A stretch of 35,836 bases of DNA. Origin: Bacteroidaceae bacterium (GTDB lineage Bacteria > Bacteroidota > Bacteroidia > Bacteroidales > Bacteroidaceae). The stretch is from assembly GCA_017450985.1 (NCBI GenBank), contig JAFSSN010000091.1, positions 1 through 35,836 of the forward strand, read 5' to 3'. How positions within the stretch are numbered: the first letter of the stretch is position 1; every line of letters starts with the position of its first letter. Made by a program: the position numbers and the translations under genes. The notes under the pieces are model-generated. The model made no database searches. It was not told the origin of the DNA and saw only the letters and a list, made by a program, of their open reading frames with translations. Of the stretch, positions 4,681 to 22,736 are shown one piece after another.

Positions 4681-4947
4681 ATGGAATCAAACAGCAATAA
4701 CATTGCCAATGCAATGGCGTTTGTCGCCGAGCATCTGACCGAAAGAGTCTATCCCGAAACGATTGAAGCGGCTGTGCGTCGTGTCGGTGATGAGCGGTGT
4801 CCGCTTGATGGCGAGGTGACAGACGCTATTAGCGACCTCATGGACGAATATGGGCAGGACAATGACCTTCCCTCCGACTATTGGGACGAAAAGACGGCAG
4901 AGGAAATTTTCTGGGAACTTGAAACAATTAAAGGATACGAACGATGA
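4681..4947 (+). CDS. Small acidic hypothetical protein (88 aa)
   Basis: An 88-residue strongly acidic helical protein. Its TGA overlaps the ATG of the ligase gene (ATGA at 4944-4947), so the two are translationally coupled. There are no membrane segments and no metal-binding cluster. It could be a DNA mimic or a partner of the ligase, but nothing in the sequence proves either. Function unknown. Confidence 0.7.
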   Translation: MESNSNNIANAMAFVAEHLTERVYPETIEAAVRRVGDERCPLDGEVTDAISDLMDEYGQDNDLPSDYWDEKTAEEIFWELETIKGYER

Positions 4948-6995
4948 ACACAAAACAAAGAATCGAAGAGCTGACAAAACAGCTCAACCATTACAACTAT
5001 CGCTACTATGTGGACCATTTTAGCGAAGTGAGCGACAAAGAGTTTGACATGATGATGCAAGAGCTTCAGGAACTGGAACGCCAGTACCCCGAATACGCTG
5101 CACCCAACAGCCCGACAATGCGTGTCGGTAGCGATCTGCAACAGGAGTTCAAGCACGTCAGGCATAACATACCGATGCTCAGCCTCTCCAATGCCTATAG
5201 CGTTGACGAGTTGCTGACATGGTATGATAGTGTGAAGGCAGTCTATGGCAAAGACGTAGCGATTGCTTATGAACCAAAGTATGATGGGCTTTCTATCTCC
5301 CTTATCTATCGCTTTGGGAAGTTGGCTCAGGCAGTCACTCGTGGCGACGGCGTGCAGGGCGACGATGTGACGGAGAATGTGAAAATGATAGAGCGTGTGC
5401 CGCTTTATATCGACCAGCCTGACATCAAGGCTCAGTCGCGCTTTGAGATAAGGGGCGAAGTGCTGATGCCATTCGAGAGCTTTGCGAAGCTCAATAAGCA
5501 GCGAGAAGCTAACGGAGAGGAACCCTTTGCCAACCCCCGCAATGCCGCAGCAGGCACATTGAAGAGCACTCGCAGCAAGGTTGTAAGGGAGCGCGGCCTG
5601 GATGTCTATCTGTATGAAGTGCCGCTGCGCTTCACGTCGAAGGAGTGGGAGCAAGACCAGTGCGACCTGATGAACTATCTCTTTGGTAAGGGGGTGCCGA
5701 CTGCGCAGAGCTTCCATGTAGGGTATTGTGTCAAAGACGGCAACGAGAACTACACCATTGACACGGACTGCTTCGATAGGGAGCGTTTGGAGTATGCCAT
5801 CAATGACTTCGTGCTTCGCCGTCCTCTTATGGACTACCCCATCGACGGCATTGTGTTTAAGGTGGCTAACCGCAGGCTTCGCCGGCAGTGCGGCGCAACA
5901 AGCAAGGCTCCCAAGTGGGCGATAGCCTATAAGTTCAATGCCGAAAGGATGATAACCACCGTCCGCGACGTGACCTTCCAAGTGGGAAGGACAGGTCAGG
6001 TGACGCCAGTCGTTCACTTCGACCCTATCCCCTTGGCTGGCACACTTGTAAGGAAAGCCACAGGCAACAATGCGGACTTCCTGCATGAGATGCACATCGC
6101 CATCGGTGGGCAGATTGAGGTTGAGAAGGGCGGCGAGATTATCCCGAAGATAGTTGTCGGTGTTGACCCCTGTGCCACAAAGGACTTCAAGGAAGTGACC
6201 TATCCGAAGTATTGCCCTGAATGTGGTGCGCCATTGGTGAAGGACGGCAGCAATTATTATTGCATCGGAGAAAGCTGCCCTGCACAACTGCAAGCAAGGC
6301 TGGAGCACTTCGTAAGCCGCGATGCCATGAACATACAAGGCATCGGTCCAAAGATGATTGAAGAATGGATAAACGGCGGCATTGTCAAGGACGTTGCGGA
6401 TATTTACGAGTCCGAAAGGTTAGAGACATTCTTCTCAACAAGGATTATCCTCTCCAGAGCGGAAAGCAAGAGCGTCCCTGCGCACCGCGTCCTTTTTGCC
6501 CTCGGCATCCGCTATGTAGGAGCAAGTACAGCCAAGCTTCTGCTGAAGCACTGCGGCAGCATCAACGCGCTTGCCGCCTTTGCCACTGCCTGCCCCGAAC
6601 AGCTTATTCGGATAGACGGGGTGGGCGTGAGTATTGTCATAAGCCTCGGTCAATGGTTCTCGGACAAAAAGAACTTGGAGCTGTTGAGCCGATTGCAGGC
6701 TATTGGGTTGCAGATGAAAGAGAAGATAGCCCATCCATCAGGCACAACACAAAAGCCTCTCGCTGGTCTGACAATCGTTATCAGTGGTGTGTTCGAGCAA
6801 CACAGCCGCGACGAATACAGAGCCATGATAGAGCAGTATGGCGGCAAGAACGGCAGCAGCGTATCGAAAAATACGAACTACATCCTTGCCGGTGACAACA
6901 TGGGGCCATCTAAGCGCGAGAAAGCCGAACAACTTGGCATTGAGATTATCAACGAAGAGCAATTTCTAAACATGATTGAAAATGAAAAACTGTAA
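4944..6995 (+). CDS. ligA: NAD-dependent DNA ligase LigA
   Basis: This is a complete 683-residue NAD-dependent ligase; bacterial LigA is about 670. Domain order is visible: Ia NMN-binding (YYVDHFSEVSDKEFD at 21-35), adenylation domain with KYDG at 112-115 (Lys112 the adenylated residue) and RGEVLMP, the OB fold, a four-cysteine zinc finger (C424, C427, C440, C445), helix-hairpin-helix repeats, and a C-terminal BRCT domain (about 605-683). It seals nicks using NAD and releases NMN and AMP. It starts inside the stop codon of the gene before it. The downstream nicotinamide phosphoribosyltransferase cassette could help supply its cofactor. Confidence 0.97.
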   Translation: MNTKQRIEELTKQLNHYNYRYYVDHFSEVSDKEFDMMMQELQELERQYPEYAAPNSPTMRVGSDLQQEFKHVRHNIPMLSLSNAYSVDELLTWYDSVKAVYGKDVAIAYEPKYDGLSISLIYRFGKLAQAVTRGDGVQGDDVTENVKMIERVPLYIDQPDIKAQSRFEIRGEVLMPFESFAKLNKQREANGEEPFANPRNAAAGTLKSTRSKVVRERGLDVYLYEVPLRFTSKEWEQDQCDLMNYLFGKGVPTAQSFHVGYCVKDGNENYTIDTDCFDRERLEYAINDFVLRRPLMDYPIDGIVFKVANRRLRRQCGATSKAPKWAIAYKFNAERMITTVRDVTFQVGRTGQVTPVVHFDPIPLAGTLVRKATGNNADFLHEMHIAIGGQIEVEKGGEIIPKIVVGVDPCATKDFKEVTYPKYCPECGAPLVKDGSNYYCIGESCPAQLQARLEHFVSRDAMNIQGIGPKMIEEWINGGIVKDVADIYESERLETFFSTRIILSRAESKSVPAHRVLFALGIRYVGASTAKLLLKHCGSINALAAFATACPEQLIRIDGVGVSIVISLGQWFSDKKNLELLSRLQAIGLQMKEKIAHPSGTTQKPLAGLTIVISGVFEQHSRDEYRAMIEQYGGKNGSSVSKNTNYILAGDNMGPSKREKAEQLGIEIINEEQFLNMIENEKL

Positions 6996-7508: not shown

Positions 7509-7652
7509 ATGACAAGAAACGATTTAATCAGGTGCTTAATGAATGAATATGGGCACAAACGTGAAGAACTTGTTCGTCTGTCAGACGATGAACTGGTAGA
7601 GATGGTTTTTAACGACATTTGTAACGAATTAAACATAAATCAGCATGAGTAA
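7509..7652 (+). CDS. Small acidic protein (47 aa) upstream of methylase-helicase
   Basis: A 47-residue ORF starting MTRNDLIRCLMNEYG, an amphipathic helix pair with the LSDDELVEMV pattern common in small phage proteins. It ends 8 bases inside the methylase-helicase gene, so translation of the two is probably coupled. It lies 12 bases after the upstream gene. Function unknown. Confidence 0.5.
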   Translation: MTRNDLIRCLMNEYGHKREELVRLSDDELVEMVFNDICNELNINQHE

Positions 7653-10600
7653 ATTACAAAGACTTCGTGACAACATTGAGGCATTGCGCCACGCTTTAAC
7701 ATCAACGAGCGAGTATGACATTGACATACTCAGGAAGTACACAGGCTTTGGAGGATTGAACTTTGTCCTTAACCCTCTCGATACGGCAGCATGGACGAAG
7801 AGCGACATTGATTGTTTCTTTGACACAATCATGCTTCATCAGCTTTTGAAAAATGAGAGTAGCGACGAGCGCGAGTTCAAGGCTTGGATGCAAAGCGTGA
7901 AGGAAAGCACACTCACGGCGTACTATACGCCGAAAGCCATTCCGGACAAAATACAGGATGCGCTTATCCATGCTCACATTGACAGCAAGCATATCCTTGA
8001 CCCTGCTGCTGGCAGTGGTTCATTTTTGCAGGTTGGCATTGATGGGGATGAAGTAGTCGCCTACGAAAAGGATGTTTTAACTTCTCTCCTTCTCGACCGT
8101 TCTATGAAAGCATTGCCATTTACACGTTTTGTAAAGGTTATTGGCAAGGGCTTTGAGACTATCCCTGCAAGTGACCTGGGACGCTTTGACCTTGTTACGA
8201 CCAATGTCCCCTTTGGCAATATCAGCGTGTTCGACCCTGCATACACCAATAGCGACGACGCTGTACGGAGAGAAGCAGCAAAGATGATACATCGTTACTA
8301 TGTACTGAAGGGACTTGACTGTCTGCGTAATGGTGGCATCCTGGCATACATCATCACGTCGAACTATCTCAACCGCGATATGGGGCAACTGCGTGAAGCA
8401 TTGAAGAACGCAAAACTGGTAAGTGCTCTGCGATTGGCTAACAACCTCTTCAAAGATGCAGACACGGAGGTAGGCACAGATTTGTTGGTGTTGCAGAAAT
8501 GCAACGGTAGGACATCGCTAACTCCCGATGAATCGCTGTTGCTGACAACATACGACGATAGCGACTGCCCGACCAACCTCTACTTTACGGTGTACCCCGA
8601 TCATGTTATTGCCACCGATAAGAAGATTGATACAGACCCATACGGCAAGCCTGGCTTCGTCTATGAGCATCGTGACGGCGTGAGCGGCATTGCAAGGGAT
8701 ATGGGCATCGTTCTTGCAAAAGACATTGCAGCGAATGTTGATGTTGACCTCTTCCACAAAGGCGGCAATCACGGTGCTGCAGTATCGCGGAGCAATGGCA
8801 AGAAGCAACATTACACCAGGCAGGAGATGAAACTGATAGAACTGTGCAAAGTCTATACGGAGCTGTACGAAAAGGAAGCAACAGAACGAAAAGAGAAACC
8901 TGTATTGCGAAAGAAGCTTAACACCCTTTACGATGCCTACACAAATAAGTATGGCGACCTGAACAACGAAGACAACCGTCAGGTTGCAAAGCGGCTGAAT
9001 GTAACAGAAGTGTTGGCTATTGAGCGCAAGGTAGATTTCCACTATGAGAAAGCCGACATCATGCTGAAGCCTATTGCTTTTGCAACGGAAGAACTGAACC
9101 ATTGCGACACGGCACAGGAGGCACTTGCTGCATCACTGAATGAGTACGGAGAACCAAGGCTCGGTTATATGGCTGGACTTACAGGAATGACGTCAGAAGA
9201 GCTGCTGGATGCTTTGAGTGACGAGGTATTCTATAACCCCTTGAATGGGGAATATGAGATAAAGGCTCGCTTTGTCAGTGGGAACGTAATCGAGAAGCTT
9301 GAGCGCATCAAGAGAAAGGGTGACGGTAACGAACTTGTTCAACGCTCCATCAGCGCATTAGAGGCTGCCATCCCAACGCCTATCCCATTCGACGACCTTG
9401 ACTTCAATCTCGGAGAACGCTGGATAAGCACAAAGGTGTATGAAAAGTTTGCCTCGGAGTTCTTTTCGATGCCCGATGCAAAAGCTGAAGTGACCGTGAA
9501 GTATCAGCCTTTGCTCGACCAATATGCAGCAGATGTGCATCGTGGAAATGAAAAGATCTGGACACAGTTTTATGTAAGCAGTGAAGCCAGCAACGACTAC
9601 TACGGTATGGAGCTATTGGTACATGCCCTTCATAATACTTGTCCCAAGATGATGAAGTACAAGCGCGATGAGAATGGCGAGAAGGTGACGGATGACGACG
9701 GCGATTACATCAAGATAGAGGATGCGGAAAAGACTCAGTTGGCAAACGCGAAGATTGAAGAGATACGTCAAGGGTTTGTCGATTGGCTCCAGCGTCAGCC
9801 GAAAGATTTCCGCGACGACCTTGCCGCTGCCTACAATCGCAGATTTAATTGTTTCGTCAAGCCGCGATATGACGGAAGTCATCAGACATTCCCAGGCATA
9901 GATATGGATGGGCTAAAGAAAAAGTATGGCATAGAACATATCTACGGCAGCCAGAAGGATTGTGTGTGGATGCTGTTGCTGAATGGTGGGGGCATCTGCG
10001 ACCATGAGGTTGGCAGCGGAAAGACCCTCATTATGTGCATTGCTGCTCACGAGATGAAGCGTCTTGGCCTGTGCCACAAGCCTATGATTATCGGCATGAA
10101 GGCGAATGTCAGTGCCATTGCAGAGACATATCGCACAGCTTATCCACAGGCAAACATATTGTTTGCAAAGGAGAGCGACTATGCCGGCAGTCAGCGCGTG
10201 GAGTTCCTGAACAATGCAAAAAACAACGATTATGATTGTATAATCATGTCGCATGACCAGTTTGGCCGTATTCCGCAGAGTGAGGTAATTCAACTGGAAC
10301 AACTGAAAGACGAGTTGCAGGAAGTGGAAGACAGCCTTGAAGCAATGAGCACATGGGGGTGGGATGTAAGCAAGAAGATGCGCAGAGGTTTGGAGATTCG
10401 CAAGAAAAGCGTTGGCGTGAAAATTCAGAAACTCCAACAGTCTTTAAGAAAGCGTGCCGATAACATTGTGGACTTCGGCCTTCTCGGTATCGACCATATC
10501 TTTGTGGACGAAAGCCATATCTTCAAGAACTTGCAGTTTACAACCCGTCACGACCGCGTGGCAGGCATCGGAAATCCCGAAGGCAGCAAGCGGGCATTTA

Positions 10601-12537
10601 ACCTGCTTATGGCTATCCGCACCATTCAGAAGCGTACACAGAGAGACCTCGGAGCTACCTTCCTCAGCGGTACGACTGTCACGAACAGCCTGACAGAATT
10701 GTATTGCCTGTTCAAGTATCTTCGCCCGAGAGCCTTGGCGAAGCAGAATATCGGATGCTTCGACGCATGGGCGGCCATCTTCACAAAGAAAAGTAGCGAA
10801 TTTGAGTTCTCGATAACAAACACCATTATCCTGAAAGAACGATTCCGCTATTTTATTAAAGTCCCTGAACTTGCAATGTTCTACAATGAGATAACAGACT
10901 TTCGCACGGCAGAGGATGTTGGCATTGAGCGTCCGGCAAAGCACCCAATGCTGCTGAACATCAAGCCAACGCCAGACCAGGAAGAGTTTATCCTGCGTCT
11001 AATGGAGTTTGCAAAATCGGGAGACTTTAGGATTATAGACATACCGATGCCTGACGACCCTGACCGACGGAAGAAGATGGAGATGGCAAAGATGTTGTAT
11101 GCAACTGATATGGCAAGGAAGATGAGCCTTGATATGCGCCTTATTGACCCCTCGTATGGCGACCATCCGAGAAACAAGGCAAGCCGATGTGCAGCACTCG
11201 TCAAAGAGTATTACGACAAGTACGATGCACAGAAAGGCACACAGCTTATCTTCTCCGACCTCTCAACCTGGCAGAACAATGACGTATGGAGCGTCTATTC
11301 CGAGATTAAGCGAAAGCTGGTGCAGGAGTATGGCATCCCTGCCAATGAGATACGCTTTATTCAGGAATGCAAGTGCGACAGGGCCAAGCAGCGACTGATT
11401 GCAGCACTGAACGAAGGAAAGGTAAGGGTCGTGTTTGGTAGTACGCAGATGCTTGGTACTGGTGTCAATGCCCAGCAGAGGGTTGTTGCGGTTCATCACC
11501 TCGATACTCCGTGGCGTCCGTCCGACCTTGAACAGAGAGAGGGTAGGGCAATCCGCAAGGGTAACGAAGTGGCGAAGCTGTATGCAGGCAATAAGGTGGA
11601 TGTCATTGTTTATGCAGTCGAGAGGAGTCTGGACAGCTACAAGTTCAATCTTCTCAACAATAAACAGATGTTCATACGCCAGTTGAAGCGTGGACAGTTG
11701 GGCATCCGAACAATCGACGAGGGTGCAATGGACGAGAACGGCATGAACTTCGCCGAGTACATGGCTATACTGAGCGGCAACACCGACTTGCTTGAACGTG
11801 CCAAACTTGAGAAGCGCATTGGTAGCCTGGAGGGTGAGCGCAAGAGTTATCTCCGTGACCAGCGAGAGCAGGAAGAGAAGATGCAGAACCTCAAAACCGA
11901 AAACGAGTGCCATGTGCGCAACATCGCAGAAGCAAAGGCCGACCTCGCCAAGTTTAACAAGGCGCGTCGCTTAGATTCTGAGGGCAATGTGGTGAATGAC
12001 CTCGTGATTGACGGATTCAAGATGCCGACAGTCACCAAAGAAGGCAAGCCCCTAACGGCAGACGACAAGGCAAAAGCACTTGGAGAAAAGTTGTTCAGCA
12101 TAGCCAACTCAATGCGCACTTGTGAAGCGTACATTGCCATCGGCAGTATCTATGGCTTCCGTGTTCAGGTGAAGACATCTGAGGTTGGGTGCTTAGAGGG
12201 GCAAGTTAGGTACGAGAACCTTTTCTTTGTGGAAGGTAGTACACGTTTGCACTACTCCTACAACAACGGAAAGCTGAACCGTACATCTGCACGCCACTCA
12301 TCGGAGAACCCGCTGCAAGCCTTGCAACTCATTCCGAAGCTCATTGACGAATGGCAACAGAGGATGGAAGAGAACGCGCATCGCATTGAACAAATTTCCG
12401 CTCTCGTTGGCAAGCCCTGGCCCAAGGAGGAAGAACTCCGATTGCTCCGCACCGACCTCAATCTACTTGACCGCAAGATAGAAACAGAACTGAATGCAAC
12501 AAAAGAAGCAGCTGCCGCAAATGCGGCGGCTGCGTAA
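7645..12537 (+). CDS. Giant N6-adenine methylase / SNF2-type helicase fusion
   Basis: A 1630-residue protein. The N-terminal part is an N6-adenine methyltransferase: an entry helix with YTGFGG, SAM-binding DPAAGSGSF at 119-127, and the catalytic motif as NVPF at 187-190 instead of NPPY/F. The middle is a superfamily 2 helicase: Walker A GSGKT at 790-794 (K793), DESH box at 955-958, and a C-terminal motif VI QREGRAIR at 1297-1304. Residues about 1390-1460 are a charged coiled coil, and the end is alanine-rich. Such fusions occur on phages and conjugative elements of Bacteroidetes and Firmicutes. They are thought to modify and translocate on the element's own DNA, but the substrate is not visible here. 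Confidence 0.88.
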   Translation: MSKLQRLRDNIEALRHALTSTSEYDIDILRKYTGFGGLNFVLNPLDTAAWTKSDIDCFFDTIMLHQLLKNESSDEREFKAWMQSVKESTLTAYYTPKAIPDKIQDALIHAHIDSKHILDPAAGSGSFLQVGIDGDEVVAYEKDVLTSLLLDRSMKALPFTRFVKVIGKGFETIPASDLGRFDLVTTNVPFGNISVFDPAYTNSDDAVRREAAKMIHRYYVLKGLDCLRNGGILAYIITSNYLNRDMGQLREALKNAKLVSALRLANNLFKDADTEVGTDLLVLQKCNGRTSLTPDESLLLTTYDDSDCPTNLYFTVYPDHVIATDKKIDTDPYGKPGFVYEHRDGVSGIARDMGIVLAKDIAANVDVDLFHKGGNHGAAVSRSNGKKQHYTRQEMKLIELCKVYTELYEKEATERKEKPVLRKKLNTLYDAYTNKYGDLNNEDNRQVAKRLNVTEVLAIERKVDFHYEKADIMLKPIAFATEELNHCDTAQEALAASLNEYGEPRLGYMAGLTGMTSEELLDALSDEVFYNPLNGEYEIKARFVSGNVIEKLERIKRKGDGNELVQRSISALEAAIPTPIPFDDLDFNLGERWISTKVYEKFASEFFSMPDAKAEVTVKYQPLLDQYAADVHRGNEKIWTQFYVSSEASNDYYGMELLVHALHNTCPKMMKYKRDENGEKVTDDDGDYIKIEDAEKTQLANAKIEEIRQGFVDWLQRQPKDFRDDLAAAYNRRFNCFVKPRYDGSHQTFPGIDMDGLKKKYGIEHIYGSQKDCVWMLLLNGGGICDHEVGSGKTLIMCIAAHEMKRLGLCHKPMIIGMKANVSAIAETYRTAYPQANILFAKESDYAGSQRVEFLNNAKNNDYDCIIMSHDQFGRIPQSEVIQLEQLKDELQEVEDSLEAMSTWGWDVSKKMRRGLEIRKKSVGVKIQKLQQSLRKRADNIVDFGLLGIDHIFVDESHIFKNLQFTTRHDRVAGIGNPEGSKRAFNLLMAIRTIQKRTQRDLGATFLSGTTVTNSLTELYCLFKYLRPRALAKQNIGCFDAWAAIFTKKSSEFEFSITNTIILKERFRYFIKVPELAMFYNEITDFRTAEDVGIERPAKHPMLLNIKPTPDQEEFILRLMEFAKSGDFRIIDIPMPDDPDRRKKMEMAKMLYATDMARKMSLDMRLIDPSYGDHPRNKASRCAALVKEYYDKYDAQKGTQLIFSDLSTWQNNDVWSVYSEIKRKLVQEYGIPANEIRFIQECKCDRAKQRLIAALNEGKVRVVFGSTQMLGTGVNAQQRVVAVHHLDTPWRPSDLEQREGRAIRKGNEVAKLYAGNKVDVIVYAVERSLDSYKFNLLNNKQMFIRQLKRGQLGIRTIDEGAMDENGMNFAEYMAILSGNTDLLERAKLEKRIGSLEGERKSYLRDQREQEEKMQNLKTENECHVRNIAEAKADLAKFNKARRLDSEGNVVNDLVIDGFKMPTVTKEGKPLTADDKAKALGEKLFSIANSMRTCEAYIAIGSIYGFRVQVKTSEVGCLEGQVRYENLFFVEGSTRLHYSYNNGKLNRTSARHSSENPLQALQLIPKLIDEWQQRMEENAHRIEQISALVGKPWPKEEELRLLRTDLNLLDRKIETELNATKEAAAANAAAA

Positions 12538-20256: not shown

Positions 20257-21408
20257 ATGAAATCGGACAACATTTATTTTGGTGAAACTGGATTGACAAG
20301 CACCAGTGCTAACCACATCGCTAACATGGCGAAGGAGAGTGTTAGGAACACGGCCAATGAATTGTCGGGTATCAGTTTCTATAGTTCAACGGTGAGCTTG
20401 TTGAGCGGCGGAAACAGTCAAAAGGCAAAGCTTGGCAGTACAAGAGAGGAACTGAACGGCATACAGAGGTCTCTCGAAGCCATTGGCGAAGCAAATGCCC
20501 TTTGTGCGTGGTTGCGCGAGGCAATCAAGGCTCGTGAGCGTTTGCTTGAAGAGGTTAAGTGCATGACGCTGGAAGGTTACTGCAAGAGCGTCCTTGGTGG
20601 CGTGGAAGTTCCGCAGCAGGACACGAACATTGGCGATTGGATGAAGACGAAAGGCTATACGCGCCCGGACATCAACGCTGAATTTCCAACAGTAGTCATC
20701 AAGCCATTCTCAGGGGTGGTAGAGTCGCGTTTGAGCGGATTCTGCCGCAAGTTCGGCCTTAAAATGCCAGATAGTCCGACACAGGAGCCGGCAATGACAG
20801 AGGATGATTACATGAGTAGTCTTTCCGTAAAAGACCGCAACCGCTTCCTTATGCTCGAAGCGAAGGCTGCAGTCATCGGGAAGTATATTCACGAGAACGG
20901 ACATCTGTATAACGAGCGCGAGAGGCTGCGCCAAATCATCGCCAAGCCGATAGGCACACAGGGCGAAGGAGCGAACACGCTAATCTACCGCTTCGAGCCA
21001 TCGGTGCAGAAAGGCGAAGTTGAAGCGTTGTTCTTCCGTCTTGCCGCTGAACATCGTGCTATACAGGCAGAGCTGAATGGGATGCTTGCAGAACGCGCCA
21101 GGGCGATTGAAGCCGACAAGCAGGAGAAGGCCGCTGCCTACCAGAAGGCAAGCGAAGACTTCTCTCGCGAGATGAGCGTATTGCAGGACAAGCTTTCTGC
21201 CTACATGCTTGAAGAACGCCGCAAGATGAGCGAACTTCAGAGCGAATATGACGCATGGAGCACCGAGCAGAAGAATCGCCATAAACAGCTCAATGCCGAC
21301 CTTGCCGCGTGGAAGCTGGTAGAGTCCAAGCGTATTGCGGCACTTGGCATTATTATCCCCAATGAGCTGCGCGACATCTACGAGCGCATAAATGGGCTTG
21401 GAAAATGA
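20257..21408 (+). CDS. Coiled-coil hypothetical protein (383 aa)
   Basis: A 383-residue protein, 13 bases after the primase-helicase. The N-terminal 60 residues are Ser/Asn-rich, residues 70-110 helical, and residues 215-365 a long charged coiled coil (ERARAIEADKQEKAAAYQKA) rich in Ala, Glu, Lys and Arg. No enzyme motif. It could be a scaffold in the replication complex or a structural protein; position favours the former. It is the last gene before the RNA region. Confidence 0.7.
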   Translation: MKSDNIYFGETGLTSTSANHIANMAKESVRNTANELSGISFYSSTVSLLSGGNSQKAKLGSTREELNGIQRSLEAIGEANALCAWLREAIKARERLLEEVKCMTLEGYCKSVLGGVEVPQQDTNIGDWMKTKGYTRPDINAEFPTVVIKPFSGVVESRLSGFCRKFGLKMPDSPTQEPAMTEDDYMSSLSVKDRNRFLMLEAKAAVIGKYIHENGHLYNERERLRQIIAKPIGTQGEGANTLIYRFEPSVQKGEVEALFFRLAAEHRAIQAELNGMLAERARAIEADKQEKAAAYQKASEDFSREMSVLQDKLSAYMLEERRKMSELQSEYDAWSTEQKNRHKQLNADLAAWKLVESKRIAALGIIIPNELRDIYERINGLGK

Positions 21409-21409
21409 A

Positions 21410-21427
21410 CTTGCGGAGCGCCGCAAG
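21410..21427 (+). other. Hairpin just after the coiled-coil gene
   Basis: A 7-base-pair stem (CTTGCGG, AGCG loop, CCGCAAG) two bases after the stop codon. There is no T tract after it, so it is either a weak terminator or a processing/protecting hairpin at the entry to the RNA region. A second hairpin (GCCGCAG at 21460-21466 with CTGCGGC at 21489-21495) follows. Confidence 0.5.
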
Positions 21428-21532
21428 GTGAAAATGCTCTTTGACTTATTGCACAGGTAGCCGCAGACTGAATGTGTTTACTGTGAAACTGCGGCGTACT
21501 GACAGTGGAGATGGTATTCTTTGACTCGCCTA

Positions 21533-21620
21533 CTGGTTCTGAAGGTCACGGGTTCAAATCCCGCCTCGCGCACAAATAGGAAAATTGGCGCGAGTAGTTC
21601 AGTGGTTAGAACGTCAGATT
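21533..21620 (+). tRNA. Circularly permuted tRNA gene (3' half, spacer, 5' half), probably Gln(CTG)
   Basis: 21533-21572 reads as a tRNA 3' half: loop end CTGGT, stem TCTGA, variable AGGTC, T arm with TTCAAAT, acceptor CTCGCGC and A73. After a 15-base spacer, 21588-21620 reads as a 5' half: acceptor GCGCGAG, TA, D stem GTTC/GAAC, G26, stem TCAGA, then TT. Joined as 5' half plus 3' half they make a 73-base tRNA with acceptor 7/7, D stem 4/4, anticodon stem 5/5 and T stem 4/5 paired. T8-A14, G15-C48, G18G19, G26, T33, G37 and A58 are all in place. A break between 33 and 34 gives loop TTCTGGT, anticodon CTG (Gln); other break points give GTG, GGG or GGC. Neither half pairs with its outer flank. 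The alternative is two decayed tandem tRNA copies. Confidence 0.55.
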
Positions 21621-21720
21621 GGCTAAGAAGTTTACGGGTTCGAGTCCCGTCTTGGGTTAAGCCCCCAAGTGGCGGAATGGGTAAACGCGCGAAATTGCTA
21701 ATTTCGTACTTAATCATTCA
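21621..21720 (+). tRNA. Second tRNA in permuted order, Ser(GCT)-like, tentative
   Basis: A T arm (ACGGG, TTCGAGT, CCCGT at 21634-21650) and acceptor strand CTTGGGT come first. Five bases later a class II 5' part follows: CCCCAAG at 21663-21669, TG, a Ser/Leu-type D arm, and a perfect anticodon arm CGAAA-TTGCTAA-TTTCG (anticodon GCT, Ser) at 21690-21706. The acceptor strands pair 6 of 7, with only position 1-72 mismatched. The variable arm could close through ACTT (21708-21711) and AAGT (21628-21631), putting the break in the variable loop. Against it: the base after the acceptor is T, while bacterial Ser tRNAs carry G73. It may instead be a truncated tRNA-Ser beside an unrelated 3' half. Confidence 0.3.
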
Positions 21721-21874
21721 AACGCTGACGCTTCGGACGGACTTCCTCCCTTCGGGGTCTGAGAGGCTGCCGCCTCCAGGATGGCTCTTGCTCTTGCTTG
21801 TCCGCAGCGGTTCTTGCTATCGCCATTACTTTTGTCTTGGACATCATCGCCCACCGTCGGACCTGTGCATCTTT
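21721..21874 (+). other. Noncoding spacer between tRNA pieces and tRNA-Arg
   Basis: A GC-rich stretch of about 150 bases with no credible gene. It contains short repeats of GCTCTTGCTCTTGC type and several small self-complementary stretches. No tRNA arm that would complete the Ser-like fragment is found here. I see no promoter or further gene. Confidence 0.4.
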
Positions 21875-21947
21875 GGACTCATAGCTCAATGGATAGAGCA
21901 CATGCCTACGGAGCATGGGGTTACAGGTTCGAGTCCTGTTGGGTTCA
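21875..21947 (+). tRNA. tRNA-Arg(ACG)
   Basis: A normal, contiguous 73-base tRNA: acceptor GGACTCA with TGGGTTC (7/7 counting G-T pairs), D stem GCTC/GAGC, anticodon stem CATGC/GCATG with loop CTACGGA (anticodon ACG), variable GGGTT, T stem ACAGG/CCTGT with TTCGAGT, and A73. CCA is not encoded, so it must be added by the host enzyme. Its normal order contrasts with the permuted pieces just upstream. Confidence 0.93.
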
Positions 21948-22310
21948 CTGTTAAGATGGAGGAAAAGTGCGGCTGCCTTTACGTCTTTCAGCAGCCGCAT
22001 GTGAGGGCATTCTCATTGCATAATTGCCCGTCAAGTCGAATCGGGGTTACGCTATAAGCACCGTATGATACTGACGGGATTTTTGAAAAACGAATGGATC
22101 TATGAAAAAACAAGCGCCGTTCTACCCCTATAGAACATACGTGGTTCTCGCAAAACCCAGATGAGACATCCTAACCGGATGTAGAGGCCGTTGAGATGAC
22201 ACGGTGGAAAGACGCCGGACCCTCCCGCGCAAACACGCTCGGATAGTTGTTAGGTAAAACCGACAGGAACCGTTGTTCGACTCAACGGGGGGGGGCTAAA
22301 AACAAAACGA
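21948..22310 (+). ncRNA. Hairpin-rich noncoding region, possible structured RNA
   Basis: About 360 bases without a gene but with many perfect stems: TGCGGCTGC/GCAGCCGCA (21968-21976 with 21991-21999, 9 pairs); CCCGTCA/TGACGGG (22027-22033 with 22072-22078), followed by ATTTTTG; GTTCTA/TAGAAC (22119-22136); ACATCC/GGATGT (22166-22182); and a T-arm-like hairpin CGTTG-TTCGACT-CAACG at 22271-22287 with a nine-G tract after it. Large structured RNAs such as GOLLD and ROOL lie next to phage tRNAs, but I cannot match this to either. It may be one RNA or several. Confidence 0.45.
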
Positions 22311-22736
22311 ATGAGAAAGAAAAAAGTTCTGATAGTACGAAAGAGCTGCCTGACAGGAAGGGATGTTTGGGTGTATCACGGCACATCAAAAGGCTCTGCA
22401 AAGGTGGTGTACCATCGGGCTTGCAAGGAAGAGCTTAGGCGCATGGGCCTTTGGAAAAAACGGGAAGAGCGCAGGAAACAAGACGTGTTGGCACTACTCA
22501 ATGAATGCCTGGCCCAAATTCCGGAAGCGGAAGGACTGACAGCAAAGCAGGCGAAAGCCGTAAAGAGGCTAAAGGCTATTGCCAATGAAGAAATTCCGTG
22601 CGACAAAGAGTTCTACCGTCACGTCATAGCAGAGCGCATACGTCGGAAAAATGCCAAAGTTCTAATACAGGAACGCAAACTAAGAGAGGAACAAACATGT
22701 TTAACAATAAAAAACAACAAAAATGAAAACATTTAA
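22311..22736 (+). CDS. Basic hypothetical protein (141 aa)
   Basis: A 141-residue strongly basic protein, first gene after the RNA region. The N-terminus (MRKKKVLIVRKSCLTGRDVW) precedes helices rich in Lys, Arg and Glu. The charge fits nucleic acid binding. It ends 14 bases inside the next gene. No family recognised. Confidence 0.65.
   Translation: MRKKKVLIVRKSCLTGRDVWVYHGTSKGSAKVVYHRACKEELRRMGLWKKREERRKQDVLALLNECLAQIPEAEGLTAKQAKAVKRLKAIANEEIPCDKEFYRHVIAERIRRKNAKVLIQERKLREEQTCLTIKNNKNENI

Follow-up and report, generated by a model that had tools for sequence, protein, structure and literature searches.

Two circularly permuted tRNA-like modules in a conserved, predicted RNA element of probable Bacteroidales phages

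Organization of the locus

The window, i.e., the whole stretch of 35,836 nucleotides that was analyzed, is contig C11 of a MAG with an estimated completeness of 56%. Its gene content in Pfam and PHROG searches is phage-like, including a DarB-like antirestriction protein, a primase-like protein, an NAD-dependent DNA ligase and methylases, and its source is probably a phage of Bacteroidales bacteria. The match to DarB-like antirestriction proteins (phrog_10089, E 3e-250) lies in a large methylase-helicase protein at positions 7645-12537.

The element described here follows a gene of 383 aa, for which no Pfam or PHROG family was detected at E 0.001, and precedes an ordinary tRNA-Arg. Its features are as follows (R1 is the covariance model described below, from which the window was held out).

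20257-21408, + strand: upstream gene, 383 aa, adjoining the RNA in 7 of 7 loci
21436-21445, + strand: boxA-like leader GCTCTTTGAC, 4 bases upstream of P1
21450-21457, + strand: P1, 5' strand, pairing with 21862-21869
21460-21466, + strand: P2, 5' strand, partner 21489-21495
21489-21495, + strand: P2, 3' strand, partner 21460-21466
21499-21503, + strand: P3, 5' strand, weakly supported, partner 21856-21860
21538-21618, + strand: module 1, permuted tRNA, Gln-like by its would-be anticodon (R1, 50.0 bits, E 9.4e-13)
21538-21542, + strand: module 1, anticodon 3' strand (stem 5/5)
21543-21547, + strand: module 1, variable loop
21548-21564, + strand: module 1, T arm
21565-21571, + strand: module 1, acceptor 3' strand
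21572-21587, + strand: module 1, acceptor loop, 16 bases
21588-21594, + strand: module 1, acceptor 5' strand
21597-21612, + strand: module 1, D arm
21614-21618, + strand: module 1, anticodon 5' strand (stem 5/5)
21634-21706, + strand: module 2, permuted tRNA with a D arm that we take to be Leu-like (R1, 64.7 bits, E 5.1e-17)
21634-21650, + strand: module 2, T arm
21651-21657, + strand: module 2, acceptor 3' strand
21658-21662, + strand: module 2, acceptor loop
21663-21669, + strand: module 2, acceptor 5' strand
21672-21688, + strand: module 2, D arm
21690-21706, + strand: module 2, anticodon arm (5/5), loop TTGCTAA
21856-21860, + strand: P3, 3' strand, partner 21499-21503
21862-21869, + strand: P1, 3' strand (P1'), closing helix with 21450-21457; probable RNA 3' end
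21875-21948, + strand: ordinary tRNA-Arg (ACG), 5 bases past P1' (ARAGORN; RF00005, 64.6 bits)

Occurrence and genomic setting of the element

Seven distinct module-bearing loci (the window, L003, L004, L005, L007, L008 and L028) were found by means of the upstream gene and the conserved motif that precedes the modules. By source, they comprise the window, five viral contigs and one contig filed under a Bacteroidaceae MAG. Identity of the upstream gene to that of the window is 78% in the MAG contig and 66 to 72% in four of the viral contigs; the gene is also present on the fifth. In all seven loci, 27 to 58 bases separate the end of this gene from the conserved motif, and the element spans 397-445 bases from P1 to P1'.

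A DNA search among 399 genomes of the same family, with the element of L028 as query, gave matches in 5 genomes, full-length only in the window's own assembly and as scraps of 22-39 bases in the other 4. On the basis of this distribution, and of the upstream gene in the Bacteroidaceae MAG contig, we infer that the hosts are Bacteroidales. A pattern scan of genome contigs returned 55 stretches, one of which is a family member, while in a viral pattern scan 6 of 11 stretches were new and all six were unrelated to the family; two further pattern scans recovered known members and nothing new. A later pattern scan of 6 stretches yielded three core members without modules (L210, L212 and L213, the last of which sits on the same contig as L082) and three unrelated stretches. 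The core relatives L082, L084, L210 and L212 contain P1 and P2 with no T loops downstream of the core, so that the core does not need the modules.

In L005 (contig IMGVR_UViG_3300032030_000015), a gene for an RtcB RNA ligase lies about 20 bases past P1' on the same strand. The frame is open, and positions 13-84 and 143-425 of the 426 positions of the Pfam model are matched. The sequence-only reading of the window had proposed a search for RNA ligase or RtcB genes. RtcB was found in one of the 6 records searched (L005), and a T4 Rnl2-type ligase gave a single match below the cut-off, in a record other than L005. A search for a T4 Rnl1-type ligase gave no match and was uninformative, as the control was likewise without a match.

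Leader, core helices and 3' end

The sequence TTCTTTGAC or a near variant is located upstream of P1 in all seven module-bearing loci (one base off in L005, and ending in GAA in L003). No clear copy was detected in four module-less loci, among which L212 carries only GTTCTCTTG. A boxA-like sequence, GAGTTCTTTGAC, also occurs in the 16S leader of one genome of the same genus, this being the one of nine compared genomes that contained a 16S. The leader before P1 is presumably a boxA antiterminator.

P1 is paired at 69 of 72 positions over 9 loci, with letters that vary between loci (i.e., it covaries), and 10 of 20000 shuffles were as good. P2, a hairpin, is paired at 63 of 63 positions over 9 loci (534 of 20000 shuffles as good), with different letters in L082 and L084; P3 is paired at 33 of 35 positions over 7 loci (2683 of 20000). 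The shuffle support for the predicted helices P2 and P3 is weak when each is taken alone. The element of the window folds at -152.9 kcal/mol (z -2.77), and 1 of 100 shuffles was equally stable. Its minimum-energy structure, as read by eye, includes P1, P2, both T arms and both acceptor hairpins, and pairs the anticodon stem of module 1 and the D arm of module 2 otherwise.

A T-rich run occurs downstream of P1' in the eight loci that have no following tRNA. A tRNA-Arg is found downstream in L003 (by the caller) and L028 (in the sequence) as well as in the window, where it is likely to be co-transcribed with the RNA. Past the tRNA-Arg of the window, positions 22027-22084 read CCCGTCA...TGACGGG and then ATTTTT, a probable terminator hairpin, and a similar hairpin with a T-run is present in L003.

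The 3' part of the element (21795-21870) is U-rich, with a three-base periodicity (GTT CTT GCT CTN ...), and is readable as a short hydrophobic peptide that ends in DII..RRAC in several relatives. A coding role for this stretch was not adopted, as the frame is shifted in L003 and is no longer hydrophobic in L084.

The two permuted modules

In module 1 of the window, a tRNA 3' half (21533-21572) is followed after 15 bases by a 5' half (21588-21620), precisely as the sequence-only reading had placed them. The halves form 20 of 21 stem pairs: 7/7 in the acceptor stem (GCGCGAG/CTCGCGC), 5/5 in the anticodon stem (TCAGA/TCTGA), 4/4 in the D stem and 4/5 in the T stem (ACGGG/CCCGC), the counts of the D and T stems having been made by eye. 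The tertiary bases seen are T8 and A9, G18 and G19, purine 26, a five-base variable loop (AGGTC) and the T loop TTCAAAT. Among the seven loci, a five-base variable loop of the form NRGTC occurs in six and purine 26 in all. The anticodon stem of module 1 covaries and forms 4 or 5 of 5 pairs in six of the seven loci (28 of 20000 shuffles as good). The would-be anticodon loop of this module is open, and U33 is found in only two of the six stem-forming loci; the break between bases 33 and 34, formerly proposed as a cut site, is thus not conserved.

A second permuted module, which the sequence-only reading had missed, follows directly after the first in the window. It is permuted at a different place, the anticodon arm coming directly after the D arm. 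Six of the seven loci form this arm with 5/5 pairs and a loop of seven bases (23 of 20000 shuffles as good). The same six have U33 and purine 37 within this already closed loop, and their would-be anticodons are GCT, GCG, TTG, TTC, TTG and GCA, i.e., five different ones. Since the permutation point of module 2 falls in the variable region and leaves the anticodon arm complete, the break does not fall at the same site in both modules. The Gln-like module comes first in all loci except L004, where the Leu-like module does. These names are used loosely, and L008, in which the anticodon stem of neither module forms, fits neither well.

Permuted versus contiguous pairing

In all seven loci two modules stand in tandem, each running from the T arm through the acceptor strands to the D arm. 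The acceptor strands of the 14 modules, entered by hand, pair at 92 of 98 positions in the permuted reading, and none of 100000 reassignments was as good; when strands were reassigned within each class, 31 and 56 of 100000 reached the observed pairing. A stricter count gives 91 of 98; it omits the seventh pair of L007 module 2, whose formation would leave a loop of one base. The contiguous reading pairs 26 of 49 positions over the seven loci, which is chance level. Mismatched acceptor strands average 4.12 of 7 pairs, a mean taken from the 13 of 14 modules that were parsed (module 1 of the window, with its T stem of 4/5, is absent, and the D arm of L007 module 2 was misplaced). Locus by locus, the contiguous acceptor pairs number 6 of 7 in the window and 3, 2, 4, 4, 2 and 5 of 7 in the six relatives, so that the window could mislead if taken by itself. 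In 12 of the 14 modules the acceptor loop has 2-8 bases, counted with 7-base strands (6-base in L007 module 2); it is longer in window module 1 (16) and L008 module 2 (24).

An alignment of 11 modules from the six relatives (A4) was analyzed further; both window modules were left out deliberately, and L008 module 2 for its long loop. In this alignment, 94.5% of the cells are paired, versus 72.4% after shuffling (0 of 500 as good), and the covariation is 0.662, versus 0.245 when shuffled and at most 0.212 when slid. Each of the six acceptor pairs of the alignment shows changes on both sides in at least one place. Of the five measures, the count of further pair types is the weakest, 42 of 500 shuffles reaching the observed value. 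The structure tested on A4 was read from these same sequences. The permuted order, for which a covariance check in related phages had been suggested, is kept in 7 of 7 distinct loci with compensatory changes.

Covariance model and tRNA callers

Model R1 was built from the same 11 modules of the six relatives, without the window. It recovers the two held-out modules of the window at 50.0 and 64.7 bits and the held-out L008 module 2 at 42.4 bits, so that all three of the left-out modules were found. With R1, four junctions between ordinary tandem tRNAs in the three stretches checked also score 27.1 to 36.7 bits, one neighbor being cut by the contig end. Scores of that size therefore prove nothing by themselves, and L008 module 2 is only slightly above this background. 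Four more matches, at 20.1 to 24.7 bits, lie beyond those inspected.

Conventional callers read the locus differently. In the window, ARAGORN reports tRNA-Arg only, whereas Infernal with RF00005 places a contiguous tRNA at 21588-21658 with 42.1 bits (cut-off 29 bits). The latter call is chimeric, combining the 5' half of module 1 with module 2's T arm, and fits only two anticodon-stem pairs. Partial contiguous calls above the cut-off are also made by RF00005 in L007 (32.1 bits), where four pairs of an anticodon stem form, and in L005 (30.8 bits); ARAGORN calls a contiguous tRNA-Gln in L004 (7293-7384). These calls serve as a warning that tRNA callers can report a false contiguous tRNA spanning two permuted modules.

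Past a distant relative of the upstream gene in L085 (about 4933-5025), D, anticodon and T arms follow each other in the normal order with no clear acceptor stem; ARAGORN calls no tRNA in this stretch.

Relationship to Y RNA and other known RNAs

The tRNA-like domain of Y RNA is described as a circularly permuted match to tRNA in an excerpt of PMC11472068. The YrlA model (RF02553) matches the permuted span in 5 of the 6 loci scanned (the window, L003, L004, L005, L007 and L008) at 27.0 to 40.5 bits, with 28.5 bits in the window, and L008 gave no match at E 0.1. All scanned loci remain under the gathering cut-off of 69 bits, which is a weak test for phages: among the matches listed, 8 of 8 other phage loci reach only 34.0 to 44.9 bits, and phage modules with a Ro60-type gene in the record also score only within this range. 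In the full-length alignments of the window, L003 and L004, the basal Ro60-binding stem contains many broken pairs, while L005 and L007 match model positions 23-89 only. No TROVE (Ro60/Rsr) gene was found in 6 records (the window's own MAG and five viral records), some of which may be fragments.

The RNA shares with YrlA the T arm, closed acceptor hairpin and D arm in that order, and with them the character of a tRNA mimic. Unlike YrlA, it has two tandem modules, of which module 2 keeps its anticodon arm, within an element of about 420 bases that has a conserved core of its own; no Ro60-binding stem is recognizable, and no Ro60 gene was found. We do not assign it to YrlA, given the poorly fitting Ro stem and the scores under the cut-off, although the cut-off by itself is a weak test in phages.

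GOLLD and ROOL are likewise large structured phage RNAs, often near tRNA genes, and the linkers of GOLLD sometimes contain tRNAs, according to PMC12286853. The RNA of the window differs from both in that its tRNA parts are permuted and no Rfam match to either was detected, whether in the whole window at gathering score, in window positions 21350-22400 to E 10, or in L003, L004, L005, L007 and L008 to E 0.1. tmRNA is another large RNA with a tRNA-like part; its model gave only a partial match of 8.2 bits, and ARAGORN called no tmRNA. GOLLD, ROOL and tmRNA were accordingly rejected as the identity of this RNA.

The permuted tRNA genes of algae and one archaeon resemble module 1 in that the 3' half precedes the 5' half with a short joining stretch. 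A 2014 review counted 34 of them in six algae and one archaeon, with algal ones maturing through circular RNA (PMC3978253, in excerpt). Those genes mature to working tRNAs, whereas here the break is not conserved and the halves are part of a larger RNA.

Permuted modules in other phages

In a survey of viral contigs for a T loop followed after 16-30 bases by a D arm, at least 125 matches were obtained in at least 120 stretches. Among the matches listed, 91 had ordinary ARAGORN tRNAs as both neighbors, and of these five had 6 acceptor pairs and none had 7; of the 16 listed with one ordinary neighbor, one had 7 acceptor pairs and the rest had 2 to 4. Among the 18 listed with no ordinary neighbor, 15 had 6 or 7 acceptor pairs, which indicates that permuted closed modules occur in other phages. 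Among the listed records, 16 have 6 or more pairs without an ordinary tRNA on both sides, and 15 of them (all except L190) were searched for TROVE. A Ro60-type protein was found in 10 of these 15 (L089, L097, L106, L114, L139, L150, L167, L179, L185 and L200).

YrlA in phages or prophages is mentioned in passages of PMC7765460 and PMC8190616, so the type of module is already known. The sequence-only reading, which knew of no established bacterial or phage example, needs qualifying here, as permuted tRNA-like RNAs have been known there as Y RNA (YrlA). What appears to be new is the pair of modules within a large, boxA-led element. No description of such an RNA was found in the literature covered, which includes portions of PMC7824862, PMC9569102, PMC12286853 and PMC11472068 and lacks the key Y RNA papers.

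Interpretation and alternative explanations

What comparison of the loci shows is the closing helix P1, the hairpin P2 and, in both modules, T, acceptor and D arms that carry compensatory changes, all at a constant place after the same gene. By this comparison, and by analogy with Y RNA, the element is probably a phage RNA of about 420 bases in which two permuted modules would act as tRNA mimics rather than as tRNA precursors.

With its rRNA-type boxA-like leader, the RNA would be able to be produced as a long transcript that is not translated. Its 3' end may be set at P1', either through the T-rich run or through RNase P acting on the tRNA-Arg downstream, and an elbow like that of tRNA would be formed by the T and D loops. 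A module with 2-8 bases between its acceptor strands, as in 12 of 14 cases, would have no free CCA end; it could be bound like a tRNA and would not be charged. The modules may thus bind a tRNA-recognizing protein as mimics, and the known entity that the RNA likely works most like is the tRNA-like half of YrlA. That half is modified by tRNA enzymes and bound to PNPase (PMC8394870, in part), and its domain has been suggested as a competitive inhibitor of anticodon nuclease (PMC7790460, in part). By analogy with this suggestion, the most likely use would be as a decoy or docking platform, e.g., for occupying a host anticodon nuclease or another tRNA-acting enzyme. Module 2 still displays an anticodon arm, whose anticodon takes five forms in six phages; such variety would be suited to a decoy directed at nucleases that change.

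Several observations stand against a mimic. The tRNA callers prefer contiguous tRNAs in four of the seven loci (the window, L005, L007 and L004), and the acceptor loops of window module 1 and L008 module 2 are long enough for processing. A working tRNA would likewise retain the U33 and purine 37 seen in module 2.

The alternative raised by the sequence-only reading, remnants of tandem tRNA copies, would make the permuted look an accident of a decaying array. The contiguous calls in those four loci and the intact tRNA-Arg that adjoins the element in the window, L003 and L028 are as such an array would have them. We nevertheless rejected this explanation and give it almost no credence: seven loci keep the permuted pairing through compensatory changes, the contiguous acceptor pairing of the relatives (2 to 5 of 7) is at chance level, and intact contiguous copies occur at this place in none of the seven. 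A Y RNA proper, with the tRNA-like module serving to link a Ro60 (Rsr) ring to PNPase or another nuclease, would account for the shared arm order and for the RF02553 matches in 5 of 6 loci, given the weakness of the cut-off in phages; an excerpt of PMC7790460 also places YrlA beside rtcBA in some bacteria. We regard it as unlikely, and rejected it as the best reading, since in the alignments the Ro-binding stem either has many of its pairs broken or is missing altogether, and TROVE was found in 0 of 6 records versus 10 of the 15 listed phage records with similar modules, two groups that are not matched for host and may contain fragments.

The sequence-only reading had suggested a permuted tRNA gene joined by a cut-and-ligate route. 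The permuted tRNA stands, being kept in the relatives; the route to a working tRNA finds no support, the anticodon loop of module 1 not being kept (U33 in 2 of 6 loci). True permuted genes would have their acceptor loop opened by RNase P and tRNase Z, and their ends joined by a nuclease and an RtcB-type ligase, to give a working tRNA. The almost complete class I tRNA geometry of module 1 would fit such genes, as would the U33 and purine 37 that six of the seven loci have in module 2; short acceptor loops do not exclude them, since intervening stretches of 1 to 74 bases are on record (PMC3978253, in excerpt). The RtcB gene of L005, which comes directly behind the RNA, is compatible with tRNA repair and with the permuted-gene reading alike; RtcB was found in one of 6 records. 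The two modules are permuted at different places, and the anticodons of module 2 differ among phages. To our knowledge, the bulge-helix-bulge splicing endonuclease is absent from bacteria. It is the enzyme on which known permuted genes are thought to rely (same review excerpt, PMC3978253). We therefore hold true permuted genes to be quite unlikely. Conversion of the modules into working tRNAs is not supported, given acceptor loops of 2-8 bases in most modules, the missing module 1 anticodon loop and the single RtcB. The bolder form, in which these would be the first permuted tRNA genes of bacterial viruses, their acceptor hairpins cut and their halves sealed by an RNA ligase such as the RtcB of L005, is quite improbable; if true, the phage would make tRNAs from pre-broken parts that are never whole before an anticodon nuclease.

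The element adds an apparently undescribed family of large phage RNAs. It suggests that permuted tRNA mimics, hitherto associated with Ro60 and Y RNA, occur in pairs in a different RNA as well, one for which no Ro60 gene was found, and it offers a concrete object for asking whether phages blunt tRNA-cutting defenses with tRNA-shaped RNA.

A tRNA within a tRNA in two viral contigs

Two viral contigs, L119 (7682-7828) and L190 (349-501), contain a tRNA inside a tRNA. The outer tRNA is in the normal order, with an acceptor stem of 7/7 and an anticodon stem of 5/5, the letters of which differ between the two contigs. In place of its anticodon loop stands a permuted inner tRNA whose acceptor hairpin is closed, and the two tRNAs would be joined via their anticodon ends.
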